Shown here piece by piece: positions 43,420 through 49,181 of a stretch of DNA of 54,364 nucleotides (positions are counted from its first letter, which is position 1; each line of letters begins with the position of its first letter). The stretch is from Archaeoglobus sp. JdFR-27 (GTDB lineage Archaea; Halobacteriota; Archaeoglobi; Archaeoglobales; Archaeoglobaceae). The translations under genes and the position numbers were made by a program. The DNA is taken from contig MTMO01000048.1 in assembly GCA_002011235.1 (NCBI GenBank), forward strand, positions 1 through 54,364. The letters run 5' to 3'. The notes under the pieces were generated by a model that saw only the letters and a program-made list of their open reading frames with translations, was not told the DNA's origin and made no database searches.

Positions 43420-43463
43420 TGCCGAGGGGGGATTCGAACCCCCGACCTCCTGATTATGAGTCA
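43420..43463. repeat. attL: duplicated 3' half of tRNA-Met
   Basis: TGCCGAGG...GAGTCA here matches 48395-48439, with one fewer G after GCCGA. It covers the tRNA 3' end to the anticodon loop but no 5' half, so it is not a functional tRNA. It is most likely the old chromosomal 3' half displaced by integration. The lost G would spoil the T-stem/acceptor junction, as expected without selection. Confidence 0.88.
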
Positions 43464-43577
43464 TGCTTAAATAAAAATCCAGAGGACAGGAAACCGGAAA
43501 ACAAGGACGAAAAAACGGAATTTGAGGAAGAAGCCTTATTAGACTATGTAAAATACCGAGACGAGTTTTATAACTAG
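43464..43577 (+). other. Open frame between attL and integrase: displaced C-terminus of the 48065 gene
   Basis: From the att core the frame GAG TCA TGC TTA ... stays open for 37 codons (ESCLNKNPEDRKPENKDEKT, then EFEEEALLDYVKYRDEFYN) to TAG at 43575, next to the integrase ATG. It has no start here. In an excised circle it would be joined in frame to the gene at 48065. Composition is charged and coding-like. Confidence 0.7.
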
Positions 43578-44423
43578 ATGAAAAACGAAATACAAATTAC
43601 AATGGCCGACGATCTCATAAACAAGCTTGATAAAGTCGGGTTCATGAAGATAAACGGACCAAGAGAGATTTATGAGCTATTAAAGAAGGATGAAACAAGA
43701 ACCTTGAGAATAGCCTTGAGAGATTTCTTCAAATTCCTGATAAAGACAGGAAAGAGGACAGAATCCCAACTCATAGATTTCAAGGCTATCGTTAAGATCC
43801 CAAGGACTGGAATAAGAACTCAAAACGCTTTCACAACAACCGAGAAAATCAGAGAAGCGAGGGAGAAGGTTAAGGATGATCCCATCAGATCAAGGCTTTT
43901 GGATCTGATGATCTTTGGAGGGATAAGACTTCAGGAAGCTTGTGACATCCTGAATAACTTCGATCCCTCAGATCTGTTCATAAACTCAAAGTTTGCTCGT
44001 TATGATCTCCTTGCCATGTATAAGAGGATAGGATCAAAGAAGGCTGAAGTTTCAGAGGTTACAAAAAGGGAAGTGGTTGCTTACATGCCTATTGAATTAG
44101 CTCAGAGATTAATAGAGGCTGGAAGGATGAAAGTGAATTATGACAGCTATAAATCAGCTAGAGATCTAAGCTTTGGAGTGGTTAACGCTTCTCAGGTTAG
44201 AAAGTGGTTCAGCGATAAGCTTGATGATCTCGGGGTAGATGAGAAGATCATAGAGTTTATAACTGGAAAAACTCCCGAGAATGTTCTAAGAAGGCATTAC
44301 CTGAAGCTCCTAAAGAAAGGTGATCGGGTTTATCCGGAGATCCTCAAGGTGTTGAAGGATCTCCTTGAGGGGAAAATCAAGGATGAAGATCTTGAAGATC
44401 TGGAGGAGATCCAGATCTCTTAA
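43578..44423 (+). CDS. int: Tyrosine recombinase (archaeal integrase)
   Basis: This 281-residue integrase has the C-terminal catalytic domain: the first arginine at R117 in FGGIRLQEA, a central segment with VVNASQVRKWFSDKL (second arginine R208), and the nucleophile Y241 in ENVLRRHYLKLL. The form resembles SSV-type and other archaeal tRNA-targeting integrases, with residues 1-85 as arm- or core-binding domain. The ATG directly follows a TAG with no gap. The gene is intact in the integrated state, unlike SSV1-type integrases that are split at the att site. Confidence 0.88.
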   Translation: MKNEIQITMADDLINKLDKVGFMKINGPREIYELLKKDETRTLRIALRDFFKFLIKTGKRTESQLIDFKAIVKIPRTGIRTQNAFTTTEKIREAREKVKDDPIRSRLLDLMIFGGIRLQEACDILNNFDPSDLFINSKFARYDLLAMYKRIGSKKAEVSEVTKREVVAYMPIELAQRLIEAGRMKVNYDSYKSARDLSFGVVNASQVRKWFSDKLDDLGVDEKIIEFITGKTPENVLRRHYLKLLKKGDRVYPEILKVLKDLLEGKIKDEDLEDLEEIQIS

Positions 44424-44443: not shown

Positions 44444-44638
44444 ATGGGAGATGATAGGGATATTAAGCAATCAATAGCTATGAGGAGGATTCTGAGACTT
44501 GAAGGTAAAAAAAGAATCGCTACAACTGTTCATTTAGAAAGGGAGATTTTTGAAGCTTTGAAATCTAACGGTTTTAACATCTCCGACTTGATCAACATAA
44601 CCCTTGAGAAATTTCTCAGGGATAAGGGATTACTCTGA
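44444..44638 (+). CDS. Ribbon-helix-helix DNA-binding protein (CopG-like)
   Basis: This 64-residue protein has the RHH pattern RIATTVHLEREIFEALKSNGFNISDLINITLEKFL: one strand followed by two helices. AAGGGGGGATGAG precedes the ATG. It follows the integrase by 20 bases on the same strand, so it is probably cotranscribed and may regulate the integrase or copy number. The first 22 residues are a basic extension. Confidence 0.78.
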   Translation: MGDDRDIKQSIAMRRILRLEGKKRIATTVHLEREIFEALKSNGFNISDLINITLEKFLRDKGLL

Positions 44639-45268
44639 ATTTTTGCCTAAGTGTTTCAAACGTTTCTTTGTTTTGTTATTAAACTTAATAATCTATCATT
44701 AATTCCTATTAACTCCTTCCCTCCTAGGGAAAATTTAAACATCATAATTAATTATTGACAATCTATTAATCCTAATAGATCCCTCTAATAGAACCAAAAT
44801 CAATCTGCAAAAGTAGAGGGGAGGATGTAGCTGATTTCATGAGGAGAGCTACCAAAAGGGAGCTTGGAAGGTTGAACTATCTTTCTGAGGATGAGCTAAA
44901 GGCGCTGGAGATGGAGAAGGTAAAGGATGGAGCTTGAAAGATTTCAAACCAGAAAAAGCTTGGAATTACAAAATGGGAGTGTGGTATAATGTTAATTTCA
45001 GAAATATGATATGACAACCCTCAAATAGAGATCTCTCATATATCCAATACTCAGAAATCAACCCTTAGCGGAAAACCTGTAGGTTTGCACGTTGATTCTA
45101 ATATATTAGAGCGGTCTAATAGTATTAATATTAGAGATTCCATTAGTAATAGACTCGAGTTCGTTAATCATCTGCGGAGAAATTTAAAGAGTTTCGATTT
45201 AACTGAATTAACTTGTCATCTAATAGAGAACTCTATTAAGATTAATAGACCAATTGGGTGATGCTAAT
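44639..45268. promoter_or_regulatory. AT-rich region with many TCTAATAG-type palindromes (operator or origin candidate)
   Basis: Copies of CTAATAG/CTATTAG crowd this gap. CTATTA-ATCC-TAATAG and CTCTAATAGA lie around 44764-44793. TCTAATATATTAGA is a perfect palindrome at about 45096-45110. TCTAATA, seven bases, TATTAGA follows at about 45115-45135, then ATTAGTAATAGA. TAATAGAG-AA-CTCTATTA is at about 45222-45240, just upstream of the RHH gene at 45269. These could be RHH operators or iterons of a replication origin; no Rep gene is seen. Confidence 0.55.
44839..44937 (+). CDS. Possible 32-residue ORF in the element
   Basis: ATG to TGA reads MRRATKRELGRLNYLSEDEL, then KALEMEKVKDGA. The frame is open a further ten codons upstream (EDVADF), so it may be the tail of a decayed gene. 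Composition and codon use look coding. Function unknown, and it may not be expressed. Confidence 0.3.
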   Translation: MRRATKRELGRLNYLSEDELKALEMEKVKDGA

Positions 45269-45766
45269 ATGGTGTTAACCAAGCAAACGGTAGCGGTTTA
45301 CCTCAGGATCGATTTAATCGATGAGGCTAAAAGAAGGAATCTGAATTTAAGCCAATTAATTAATCGATTACTTGAGGAATTCCTATTCGGAAATTCAACC
45401 ACATTCAGTGAGGATTATATCAGGCTTAAAGAATTAAACAGGGAATTCGAAACACTCAAGAAAAAGGTAGAGGAGTTTGAAAAAGAGCTTAAAGAATTGA
45501 ACTCCAAAGCTGAAGAGGAAGTTATGATGCAAGAAGCTGAGAACGAAGCCCATCTGATTGCAGCCTTGAAAGAACATCCGGTTTTATCAAAGCTTAACGA
45601 CTTTTGGAGTTTCAAGTATGAAGCTGAAAGAATAGGGAATACAGTTGAAGGGATAGTAAACACAAACCTACAGATCTTCGCAACCAAAAACCAGATCAGT
45701 TTGAAGAAAGCTCAGGAGCTGTTTTTCAAGGCATTTCCAGAAATGAAAGATAAGGTTAGAGTATAA
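45269..45766 (+). CDS. RHH protein with coiled coil
   Basis: This protein of about 165 residues has an RHH domain at residues 1-45 (QTVAVYLRIDLIDEAKRRNL, then NLSQLINRLLEEFLF) and a coiled coil at about 58-100 (heptads of E/K/L). A helical C-terminal domain follows. The ATG at 45269 follows GGGTGATG. It sits directly downstream of the palindrome cluster, so autoregulation or segregation/replication control is likely. I cannot match the C-terminal domain. Confidence 0.7.
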   Translation: MVLTKQTVAVYLRIDLIDEAKRRNLNLSQLINRLLEEFLFGNSTTFSEDYIRLKELNREFETLKKKVEEFEKELKELNSKAEEEVMMQEAENEAHLIAALKEHPVLSKLNDFWSFKYEAERIGNTVEGIVNTNLQIFATKNQISLKKAQELFFKAFPEMKDKVRV

Positions 45767-45781
45767 AATTAGATTGTGTAT

Positions 45782-47065
45782 TTATACAGCGTAATCAAGC
45801 ATCACATTTACATTAGCTTTAAAGTTCGGAGAATATATCATCAAGCCCCATCCTTTTTCTGCCTCTACTGTTTTTTCATAAGTTTTTATGTCTAAAACAT
45901 AGCCTAACTGTTTAAATCCTTCGTTTTTCATAAATTTGTCAAATTCCCTTTTGCTAGGTAGTATGTAAATATCAATCGGCATATTTGAGGTTACCTTGAC
46001 TTTTACTTTCACTTTGGACATCTCTAATCCCAATGCAGGATTATACAAGTAGTAGAACACACCATAGTTCCTATTCAAAGTTATTTCATCTTTTTCTTTG
46101 AGTTTTACTAGGTCTAATGTCACGTAGAAATATTTGTCTTTAGGATTGTAAAACACACCTACCGCTCCATCTGTGAAATAGTTATCAAGGTCATGAATAA
46201 GAGATTTATGCACGGGACTTTTTAACCAACCATTTAAAACTTCTTCGGCTATCTTCTCTTCTGATTCTCCTTCTATTAGGGGATATGCGTATAGGTTTTC
46301 TCCAGCACTTAAATAGAATATGTTATCTTCTTGCAGTCTGTCAAAAATGTCTTTTCCTTCGGGGTTTGTATGGGAAAAATATCCTCTTTCTGCCATATCT
46401 TTGCTGTAGGTGTATGCGATCTCCCATATTCGAGAATTCCACCTCAAAGGATCTACACCGATTTTTTCCCTTTCAGCGTTTACCAGTTCAAATATCTTTT
46501 TTTCGATTAGAGCAATATCAAGGTCTGAAAATTGCCTTCTTTCTTCAAAAGGAGTGGAGGTAGGTATGGGAGTTGAGGGTATCGGAGAGAGAGTAGGTAA
46601 AGGTGTAAAGGTAGGTGTAGGTGTTAGATATATAAGAGTCCAAGAAGATTCCTCTGTTTCTTCTCGTGGGATAAAACAATTTAAACCAGAATAATTCAGG
46701 TCTTTTTCGGTTAGATTGCATATAAATTCCATTTCTTTGTTGTGCAAAATTGTTTTGATTGATACCTCACCCGTACTCAACTCTGCTATTGGTACTTCCA
46801 AAAAACCATTATTAGCATAACCAAGATATTTATTATTTAAGTATACATCACCGCTTAGAGGTTCTTTTGTCTCTTTTATACAAAAATAAAAAATAAATTT
46901 TCTTACAGGAGTTTGAGTAGGAGAAGGTGTCAAGGTTGTAATAGATACTTCAACAGTAGGTACAGAGGTAGGTCTTGGGATTGGTGTAGACTCTTCTCCT
47001 AGCTGTTCAGAGCATCCAATAATTAAGACGGTAATTAGCAAAGCTATAGTTAATCTAATCAACAT
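45782..47065 (-). CDS. Secreted CAP (SCP/PR-1)-domain lipoprotein
   Basis: This protein of 427 residues starts at the ATG at 47065, after GAGGT, with a lipoprotein-type signal (MLIRLTIALLITVLIIGCSE). A Thr/Pro-rich linker, a beta domain and a second TP-rich linker follow. Then comes a CAP domain: LVNAEREKIGVDPLRWNSRI, YFSHTNPEGKDIFDRL, AGENLYAY, GWLKSPVHKSLIHD. The CAP cavity residues His-Glu-His are present. The last 100 residues are an extra beta-rich domain. Function on the element is unknown; surface adhesion or a defensive or lytic role is speculation. Confidence 0.8.
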   Translation of the reverse strand: MLIRLTIALLITVLIIGCSEQLGEESTPIPRPTSVPTVEVSITTLTPSPTQTPVRKFIFYFCIKETKEPLSGDVYLNNKYLGYANNGFLEVPIAELSTGEVSIKTILHNKEMEFICNLTEKDLNYSGLNCFIPREETEESSWTLIYLTPTPTFTPLPTLSPIPSTPIPTSTPFEERRQFSDLDIALIEKKIFELVNAEREKIGVDPLRWNSRIWEIAYTYSKDMAERGYFSHTNPEGKDIFDRLQEDNIFYLSAGENLYAYPLIEGESEEKIAEEVLNGWLKSPVHKSLIHDLDNYFTDGAVGVFYNPKDKYFYVTLDLVKLKEKDEITLNRNYGVFYYLYNPALGLEMSKVKVKVKVTSNMPIDIYILPSKREFDKFMKNEGFKQLGYVLDIKTYEKTVEAEKGWGLMIYSPNFKANVNVMLDYAV

Positions 47066-47154
47066 ATTTTTACCTCTGTTATATAACACCATAAATTTTT
47101 GAAATATTTTAAACTTTTGTAAGATTGTTTCCTTTGTTCAATTTTTTCAAAAAT

Positions 47155-47922
47155 TTAAGGATACCTAAACATAGAACTCATTGAGCCTATTGACTTTCTC
47201 ACCTCTTCGACTTTTTCATCAACCCCTTCGATTATAATTTCAATCACATCATCTGTGAGTTGGAATGGTTTATCGTTATTTGGAAATTTCCAGACTTGTG
47301 GTTTAAGTTTTCCAACTCCAATACTATCACTTAATCTTTCTCTTTCAATGTAGTAGATTATGAAAGAAGCCAATTTGATCGTCTCGTCCATGGTATAATT
47401 AGTATCCCAACATCTGAGGAAAACGTCTCCTAAGTGTGCTTGCCCTATTACAACCTTGTCATAAATTGGTATCGGCACCCTATATCCCCAATCCATATAA
47501 TACAGTACTGGTTGGGGTTTGTGTTCTATTATGTCTTCCAAAACAAAAATGACTTGTAAAGTTGATGTATCATCTGGTAATTCGGTGTTCTCATAAACAG
47601 AGTACATTTCGTTAATAAGAGAGATACAATCTTGTTTAAAATTGAATGTTGTGTACTCGTACTTGGCTTCTTCTGGGAAATCTTTCGGTAATTCTTGGTT
47701 TTGGTATTCAAAGAGATGAATTCTATTTATTACCCTTCTTGGAAGTTCGTTTAAAAATTCATTAAAAATAGGTTCAATCCCAGCTGCCGCAAAAACGATA
47801 TATTCGAAATTTGGAACTGGTCTTATTTTATCTGTGTAGAAAGATTTTTCTCCTCTTTTAGCTTTTCTATCAGCAACTATAACTATCCCATCCTTACATT
47901 TCGCGCCTAAAATATAGGTCAT
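47155..47922 (-). CDS. Proteasome-like Ntn hydrolase
   Basis: This 255-residue protein starts MTYILGAKCKDGIVIVADRK, as in 20S proteasome beta/HslV-like subunits. After removal of Met, Thr2 would be the N-terminal nucleophile. D18 matches the conserved Asp17 and K32 in YTDKI matches Lys33 of the family. Helical and strand segments follow the Ntn fold (FAAAGIEPIFNEFLNEL, VVIGQAHLGDVFL). There is no propeptide. It is distant from the chromosomal proteasome subunits. TGATAAAATAC is about 40 bases upstream, in a promoter region divergent from 48065. Confidence 0.65.
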   Translation of the reverse strand: MTYILGAKCKDGIVIVADRKAKRGEKSFYTDKIRPVPNFEYIVFAAAGIEPIFNEFLNELPRRVINRIHLFEYQNQELPKDFPEEAKYEYTTFNFKQDCISLINEMYSVYENTELPDDTSTLQVIFVLEDIIEHKPQPVLYYMDWGYRVPIPIYDKVVIGQAHLGDVFLRCWDTNYTMDETIKLASFIIYYIERERLSDSIGVGKLKPQVWKFPNNDKPFQLTDDVIEIIIEGVDEKVEEVRKSIGSMSSMFRYP

Positions 47923-48020: not shown

Positions 48021-48052
48021 TTTGGACTAAAAATTTAAATAATTTGGACTAA
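48021..48052 (+). promoter_or_regulatory. Direct repeats flanking the TATA box of the 48065 gene
   Basis: TTTGGACTAA occurs at 48021-48030 and again at 48043-48052, a 22-base offset (two helical turns). The AAATTTAAAT TATA element lies between them. A protein bound here would block the promoter, so this is a likely operator of the regulator-like gene. Confidence 0.6.
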
Positions 48053-48064
48053 GAAAATATTAGC

Positions 48065-48457
48065 ATGAAACTGAAGGAGAAAGGGAAAGTAAGAATAGGA
48101 AAAGATTCAACTAAAGGATACGTCTACCCAAAGTTAAGACTTCCAAAATATTTCAGCAATCTCGTAGGTGAAAAGGTAATTATTTACGAGGCTATTCTTG
48201 AGGAGGGTACAGGGATCTTGATAGTTCCTGAAAAAGTTGGACAAATTAGACAAAATGAGTTGGACAATTTAGAAATAGTTGGACTAAAAAATGATACAGA
48301 AAAAGAAATTAGAGAGATTAAAAAGGCTATTCTAGAGATCAAAGAGATTGTTTCAGAGAATAGAAGGGAATATATGGCATATTTAGGTGAAATATGCCGA
48401 GGGGGGGATTCGAACCCCCGACCTCCTGATTATGAGTCAGGCGCCCCAACCAGCTAG
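48065..48457 (+). CDS. Small regulator-like protein whose 3' end is the att/tRNA sequence
   Basis: Residues 1-60 (GKVRIGKDSTKGYVYPKLRL, PKYFSNLVGEKVIIYEAIL, GILIVPEKV) resemble a swapped-hairpin AbrB-like DNA-binding domain. Residues 85-112 form a charged coiled coil. In the integrated form the last residues (RGGDSNPRPPDYESGAPTS) are the antisense of the tRNA-Met gene. Joined to the left end of the element, the frame instead continues through 37 other codons and stops right before the integrase ATG. It may control the integrase; that is inference. Confidence 0.65.
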   Translation: MKLKEKGKVRIGKDSTKGYVYPKLRLPKYFSNLVGEKVIIYEAILEEGTGILIVPEKVGQIRQNELDNLEIVGLKNDTEKEIREIKKAILEIKEIVSENRREYMAYLGEICRGGDSNPRPPDYESGAPTS

Positions 48458-48468
48458 GCTACCTCGGC
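48395..48468 (-). tRNA. tRNA-Met (CAT), integration target (attR in its 3' half)
   Basis: On the minus strand the acceptor GCCGAGG pairs with CCTCGGC. D arm TAGCCTAGCTGGTTGGGGC; anticodon stem CCTGA/TCAGG with loop CTCATAA (anticodon CAT); T arm GGGGGTTCGAATCCCCC; discriminator A. CCA is not encoded. GAATATATTGC lies about 25 bases upstream. Elongator tRNA-Met is more likely than tRNA-Ile2(CAT), but I cannot settle this. The 3' half (48395-48439) is the right attachment repeat. Confidence 0.93.
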
Positions 48469-48815: not shown

Positions 48816-49181
48816 ATGGTTGAAGAACTAACCGAGAAGGAGGAAAAAGTCGTCAAATTATTATCCGATGCAGGATTAAACAGGAATATTGCTAAAGTAG
48901 TTGTATTCCTCTCAAAATCAGGTGAAGCTATATCAAGAGACATAGAAAGGGCAGCAAATCTAAGACAGCCAGAGGTAAGCTTAGCCATGAAGGAACTCAA
49001 AGAATGGAACTGGATAAAAGAGAGAGAACTCAAAAAGAAGGGGAAGGGAAGACCATTAAAAAGCTATAAACTCACCCTTGATATAAAAGATATAGTTTCC
49101 GAACTTGTTAAGAAAAAGAGAGAGGAAATAAAAAGAACCGAGAAGGATTTAGAAGAACTGGAGAAGCTCGTCGGGCTTTAA
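48816..49181 (+). CDS. HTH transcriptional regulator (MarR/TrmB-like)
   Basis: This protein of about 121 residues has a winged helix: LLSDAGLNRNIAKVVVFLSK, AISRDIERAANLRQPEVSLAMKEL, wing KGKGRPLKSYKL. A basic C-terminal coiled coil (ELVKKKREEIKRTEKDLEEL) follows. Such one-domain archaeal regulators are common; the target is unknown. The ATG at 48816 follows GGGGTGA at good spacing; a GTG nine bases earlier lies inside that site. Confidence 0.78.
   Translation: MVEELTEKEEKVVKLLSDAGLNRNIAKVVVFLSKSGEAISRDIERAANLRQPEVSLAMKELKEWNWIKERELKKKGKGRPLKSYKLTLDIKDIVSELVKKKREEIKRTEKDLEELEKLVGL

Follow-up and report, generated by a model that had tools for sequence, protein, structure and literature searches.

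A tRNA-Met element of Archaeoglobus that probably carries a degenerate, SSV-type integrase with a predicted AbrB/MazE-like N-terminal module

Architecture of the integrated element

The window analyzed here, a stretch of 54,364 nucleotides from Archaeoglobus sp. JdFR-27, contains an integrated element of 4,976 bp (~5 kb) lying between a partial copy of a tRNA-Met gene (attL) and an intact tRNA-Met gene (attR). The intact gene (48395-48468, minus strand, anticodon CAT) is the integration target; it was identified by ARAGORN and folds as a tRNA. Its 3' half is the attR copy of the att repeat (48395-48439, unstranded) and was brought by the element. The attL copy (43420-43463, unstranded) is the abandoned 3' half of the host tRNA-Met gene. 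The two copies share an exact 33-bp core found only twice within the window, at 43431-43463 and 48407-48439, with a period of 4,976 bp. The extended repeat spans TGCCGAGG through GAGTCA, and attL is one G short in a run just outside the core, with six G against seven in attR. Integration into a tRNA gene, with an intact tRNA rebuilt at one end and a partial copy left at the other, is the arrangement of SSV-type elements.

The genes of interest lie at the two ends. A tyrosine recombinase gene, termed int(C) (43464-44423, plus strand), begins directly after the attL core, and a reading frame termed int(N) (48065-48457, plus strand) runs into attR. Behind int(C) is a gene for a small, probably ribbon-helix-helix protein (44444-44638, plus strand) with only weak matches to CcdA and RelB; a similar small gene follows int in the elements L004, L074, and ApPV1. 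The next gene (45275-45766, plus strand) encodes a CcdA-like N-terminus with a coiled coil, and a homologue is present in the intact-integrase element L064. Between these two small DNA-binding-like genes, an AT-rich stretch is enclosed by the 31-nt arms of an inverted repeat (44762-44792 and 45219-45249; 84% complementary, 426 nt apart), and the region 44762-45249 is a possible replication origin. The cargo on the minus strand consists of a CAP-domain (YkwD-like) protein (45782-47092; PF00188, E 2.6e-10; TIGR02909 below cut-off), probably secreted or a lipoprotein, and a protein with a weak match to proteasome-type Ntn hydrolases (47155-47922; PF00227, E 1.4e-4, just under the cut-off). A gene for an MreA-family transcriptional regulator (48819-49181; NF053756, E 8.8e-37) is located just outside the element.

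One reading frame across the joined att sites

The ORF that starts at 48065 codes for 130 amino acids, enters the tRNA gene in antisense, and stops at 48457 with the C-terminus ...PDYESGAPTS. Its product is composed of a predicted AbrB/MazE-like N-terminal domain, a coiled coil, att-encoded residues, and a host-encoded tail. When the ends of the element are joined in silico, the frame continues through att as an ORF of 162 amino acids that ends in a TAG (43575-43577, plus strand). The integrase ATG (43578) follows immediately, without a change of frame. The whole locus is thus one frame with one amber codon, in the order AbrB-like part, att peptide, 37 codons, amber codon, and catalytic integrase.

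Much of the first-pass annotation is borne out by this arrangement. It had placed attP inside a coding sequence and expected a circle ORF of ~162 residues adjoining int, with 37 codons past the left att before a TAG directly ahead of the ATG. It had also stated that integration replaces the 3' end of the 48065 ORF by tRNA-antisense codons and detaches the catalytic part from the ORF and its promoter, and both statements agree with the joined sequence. The new tail, given as six residues, has five, GAPTS, after ...PDYES. The proposal that att lies in an upstream regulator-like gene, unlike in SSV-type elements, is not supported, as the separation of the two genes here comes down to a single TAG at a conserved tryptophan position.

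The int(C) segment, in frame with int(N), comprises the 37 post-att codons, the amber codon, and the catalytic tyrosine recombinase. It matches PF16795 (Phage_integr_3) with E 2.7e-31, a domain of suicidal integrase families (PMC8371274). Four conserved residues taken as catalytic, R117, K163, R208, and Y241 (int numbering), are all kept, and no stop other than the TAG is present. As in SSV-type integrases, att is situated within int, so that integration parts int(N) from int(C). An unbroken ORF in the joined state is expected of active copies, decayed copies being exempt; here it is interrupted by the one TAG at the conserved tryptophan, and the locus is therefore classed as a degenerate copy.

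Relatives of int(N) and their rejoined forms

No Pfam, NCBIfam, or PHROG family represents the 48065 ORF. Profile searches recovered homologues of int(N) in 24 of 59 genomes of the class and 65 of 393 genomes of the phylum. Of the 49 loci inspected, 44 have a tRNA gene that overlaps the ORF at its 3' end or lies at most 400 nt away from that end, usually in antisense, against a random-gene expectation of ~1-2% on our own estimate of ~46 tRNA genes per 2 Mb. The tRNAs are those for Val, Glu, Leu, Cys, Pro, Arg, Gly, Ala, Thr, Met, Phe, Lys, and Asp. The architecture of the locus recurs in dozens of relatives and is more than chance.

Both flanks were joined by script in 19 integrated relatives for which an att copy is present at the opposite end. 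One (L134) was set aside, its candidate attL being a full tRNA copy, which leaves 18 informative cases. Sixteen of these yield one continuous integrase ORF through att, of 382-543 amino acids. The two others are L150, which is in frame across att and then broken in the catalytic part, and L159, where the N ORF stops before att. A locus of the same genus (L064) is a single open frame of 457 codons with the N-domain, an att-like peptide, and the tyrosine recombinase. The same holds beyond the AbrB-like group. Joining the ends of a tRNA-Glu element in a genome that is presumably A. profundus (L073, G014) gives a single ORF across att. In the circular form of the virus AvPV1 (BK065155; L169 44-892, L174 2225-2451), a single ORF passes without a break from gp31 through att into the integrase gp01; an exact AvPV1 match is present in a genome that we take to be A. 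veneficus. Since 16 of the 18 rejoined relatives, the A. profundus element, and AvPV1 give single ORFs, att lies inside int, and the 48065 ORF corresponds to int(N).

Two observations could be held against a one-gene reading. The copy in the window is not a single open frame, and the N ORFs of L159 and of the closest N homologue, L102/L063, end before att. An N ORF ending before att had been named in advance as the observation that would overturn the idea of a frame through att; such ends do exist in these two relatives, and many others run through.

The N-domain found no free plasmid relative by tblastn in PLSDB, where int(C) matches only pTN3, pT26-2, pGE2, and one Sulfolobus plasmid. Single-protein scans of viral and genome contigs returned one relative apiece or none, and the broad alignment of relatives is too variable for use as a search query.

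Several individual loci are of separate interest. At L143 (G172:C1:1301471-1302796), an intact 442-codon N-att-recombinase frame occupies the attL position of a neighboring tRNA-Val element; it may reflect a tandem integration that regenerated a chimeric full-length integrase, and no third att copy is found within ~40 kb upstream. The A. profundus tRNA-Glu element (L073 / L184-L185, G014:C1:1417000-1456999) is 28.6 kb long, with an int(C) ~47-49% identical to that of the window. Its ribbon-helix-helix-like int(N) is unrelated; elements appear to swap N and C modules with one another. For the tRNA-Glu elements (L073, L074, and L004), two overlapping frames, one for N and one for int, were considered and rejected, as the A. 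profundus element is a single fused ORF with another N-domain; the L074 contig is poor, with nine N and apparent frameshifts. In the genome of the window itself, a second int(N)-type ORF (L068, G000:C52) runs into a partial tRNA, by eye probably tRNA-Arg, at the contig end. Its neighbors encode a PAPS-reductase-domain protein, a GHKL ATPase, and an AbiJ N-terminal-domain protein, a defense-like cargo.

Interpretation as a suicidal integrase

Drawing on the observed anatomy, frame, homology, and pattern among relatives, we consider the locus to be a degenerate copy of an SSV-type (type I, "suicidal") tyrosine integrase with attP within its own gene, at a probability of roughly 0.87. Judged from its sequence, the apparent two-gene layout is one gene with a nonsense codon, where 48065 begins int(N) and 43578 belongs to int(C). 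In the circle, the gene would extend from the promoter at ~48021-48052 through the AbrB-like domain, the att peptide, and the catalytic part (43464-44423), and this promoter, ahead of int(N), would drive the full integrase. Recombination with tRNA-Met would then split the gene in two. The int(N) half would retain its promoter at attR and gain five tRNA-antisense codons as a tail, and int(C) would be left at attL behind host DNA, cut off from the int(N) promoter. With its gene split and int(C) lacking that promoter, the integrase would be switched off by the element itself, a known property of suicidal integrases (PMC8371274). Excision elsewhere requires a complete related integrase or some help from the fragments (PMC8371274), and the amber codon would further lower the odds of excision from this copy.

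Recognizing the gene as half an integrase removes what had appeared to be a new switch. Self-splitting integrases with an AbrB/MazE-like N-module occur repeatedly at many tRNA genes, not only in Archaeoglobi but also in further families of the phylum (probably Methanosarcinaceae).

The amber codon and the fate of this copy

The TAG occupies a conserved position. In an alignment of 25 integrases, the 24 relatives have tryptophan in 23 cases and tyrosine in 1, and a stop in none. A TGG-to-TAG type of change at this tryptophan would break int(C), and it most likely arose after integration, at a time when the fragment would no longer have been under selection. The loss of a G from attL, whose tRNA half is no longer in use, is likewise consistent with relaxed selection. 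Read-through of the TAG by pyrrolysine was rejected, as a search for PylS gave nothing over the cut-off. Activity of the integrase has presumably been lost, and the copy could probably be freed only by a related integrase in trans. The genome of the window has only one other PF16795 match, a broken fragment on contig C15, and so no intact relative that could act in trans is seen in it.

Two other explanations of the TAG can be weighed against decay. It may be a sequencing or assembly error, in which case the integrase would be of the ordinary suicidal type, intact except for its split. The genome is a draft of 67 contigs, one base makes the difference, and the att G-run likewise differs by one; the rest of the element shows nothing error-prone, and a single assembly is available. 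We regard an error as quite unlikely. Alternatively, the TAG could be functional, with termination followed by reinitiation to give a tailed Int(N) alongside an Int(C) that is active; the split would then be an adaptation of this element. The direct contact of TAG and ATG would suit such a scheme, as would the 281-codon int(C), otherwise intact with its catalytic residues, and the weak in vitro activity of truncated Int(C) of SSV1 and SSV2 (PMC8371274). Its weaknesses are that none of the aligned relatives has a stop at that position and that the gene is split by integration in any case, and we judge it very unlikely.

The N-terminal module and its promoter

An AlphaFold2 model of Int(N) (mean pLDDT 82.5) has the order E-E-H-E-E followed by a long helix, a predicted topology that suggests a resemblance to the swapped-hairpin AbrB/MazE proteins. 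MazE, VapB, pSSVx C68, and viral SpoVT/AbrB proteins are among the weak Foldseek matches of the model, none of which is significant. No Pfam model matches the module, and its profile, run at maximum sensitivity, still finds no match in SSV2, pTN3, pT26-2, or pGE2.

The probable int(N) promoter (48021-48052, plus strand) contains TTTGGACTAA twice, flanking the TATA-like box TTTAAATA (48034-48041, plus strand). A near-copy of this arrangement is found upstream of the closest relative, and the TTTGGACTAA pair occurs once among the 57 genomes searched. Both copies have the look of operators, and Int(N) itself may be what binds them. Among ~30 promoters, direct repeats around the TATA box reach significance in just 4, and a palindrome search proved more informative. 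The arrangement in the window differs from the palindrome GTT-N4-AAC enriched in int(N) promoters. This palindrome was first spotted by eye, and in a full scan run afterwards it ranks first of 576 spaced palindromes over 36 int(N) promoters (23 sites against 1.95 expected, ~12-fold); the nominal p of 3e-17 is too small, since promoters of related elements are not independent. The sites fall in 15 promoters, mostly 23-60 nt before the match start, and L080, L083, L110, and L122 are among the loci concerned. Given this richness in GTT-N4-AAC, Int(N) may be an autoregulator, which would be a weak version of the state switch first proposed.

The full proposal was that 48065 and int form an operon in which 48065 encodes a regulator, whose change of tail, together with the severing of int from its promoter, brings about state-dependent control. 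In a broader form, the int(N) fragment of all such elements would still be expressed after integration and act as an autorepressor of int promoters. The AbrB/MazE-like topology of the model, the GTT-N4-AAC enrichment, and the paired TTTGGACTAA around the TATA-like box of the window all agree with a regulator, as does the transcription of int(N), and not of int(C), in integrated pXQ1 and XQ2 (PMC8371274). The tail lost in the relatives, however, is the recombinase itself and not a regulatory tail, and the fold match is below significance; the switch is thus unlikely. It is equally improbable that the severed Int(N) is retained as a promoter-binding autorepressor at its own palindromes that guards against related incoming elements. 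If it were, self-splitting would both disarm the integrase and create a repressor, an archaeal counterpart of integration-dependent immunity, and binding of Int(N) to the promoter palindromes would offer a testable answer to why suicidal integrases persist.

Comparison with known systems

The integrases of SSV1, SSV2, pTN3, and pT26-2 share with the locus a PF16795 recombinase, an att site in the gene, a tRNA target, and the placement of int(N) and int(C) at opposite ends once integrated. The window differs from SSV2, pTN3, and pT26-2 in its AbrB-like N-domain and in the amber codon of its int(C); the N-terminal domain that would mark a member of the pT26-2 / pTN3 / SSV2 subfamily is not shared. 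The known hosts of pT26-2-type suicidal integrases include Archaeoglobales (PMC8371274). A nonsense codon in int is also shared with pST4 of Sulfolobus, known here by citation only, an integrated element described as immobilized by such a mutation (cited in PMC8371274).

Closer in host are AvPV1 and the A. profundus tRNA-Glu element, which have Archaeoglobi hosts, a PF16795-type int(C), and one ORF across the joined att; their N-domains, in contrast, look ribbon-helix-helix-like by eye. The gp31 and gp01 genes of AvPV1 look like two halves, int(N) and int(C), of one suicidal integrase that received separate gene annotations, and the available passages of the AvPV1 paper (PMC10919331) make no mention of a single ORF. 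AvPV1 is an active virus that excises (PMC10919331), a difference from the probably trapped element in the window.

The gene order first proposed for the window is that of the integration-dependent immunity system of mycobacteriophage BPs, where attP lies in the gene of a DNA-binding protein ahead of int and integration truncates the protein (PMC4557955). BPs makes its repressor and its integrase as two distinct proteins, and what the repressor loses on integration is a degradation tag (PMC4557955). In the relatives of the window, by contrast, the two parts are one protein encoded by one ORF, separate in the window only by virtue of the TAG, and what integration removes is the recombinase.
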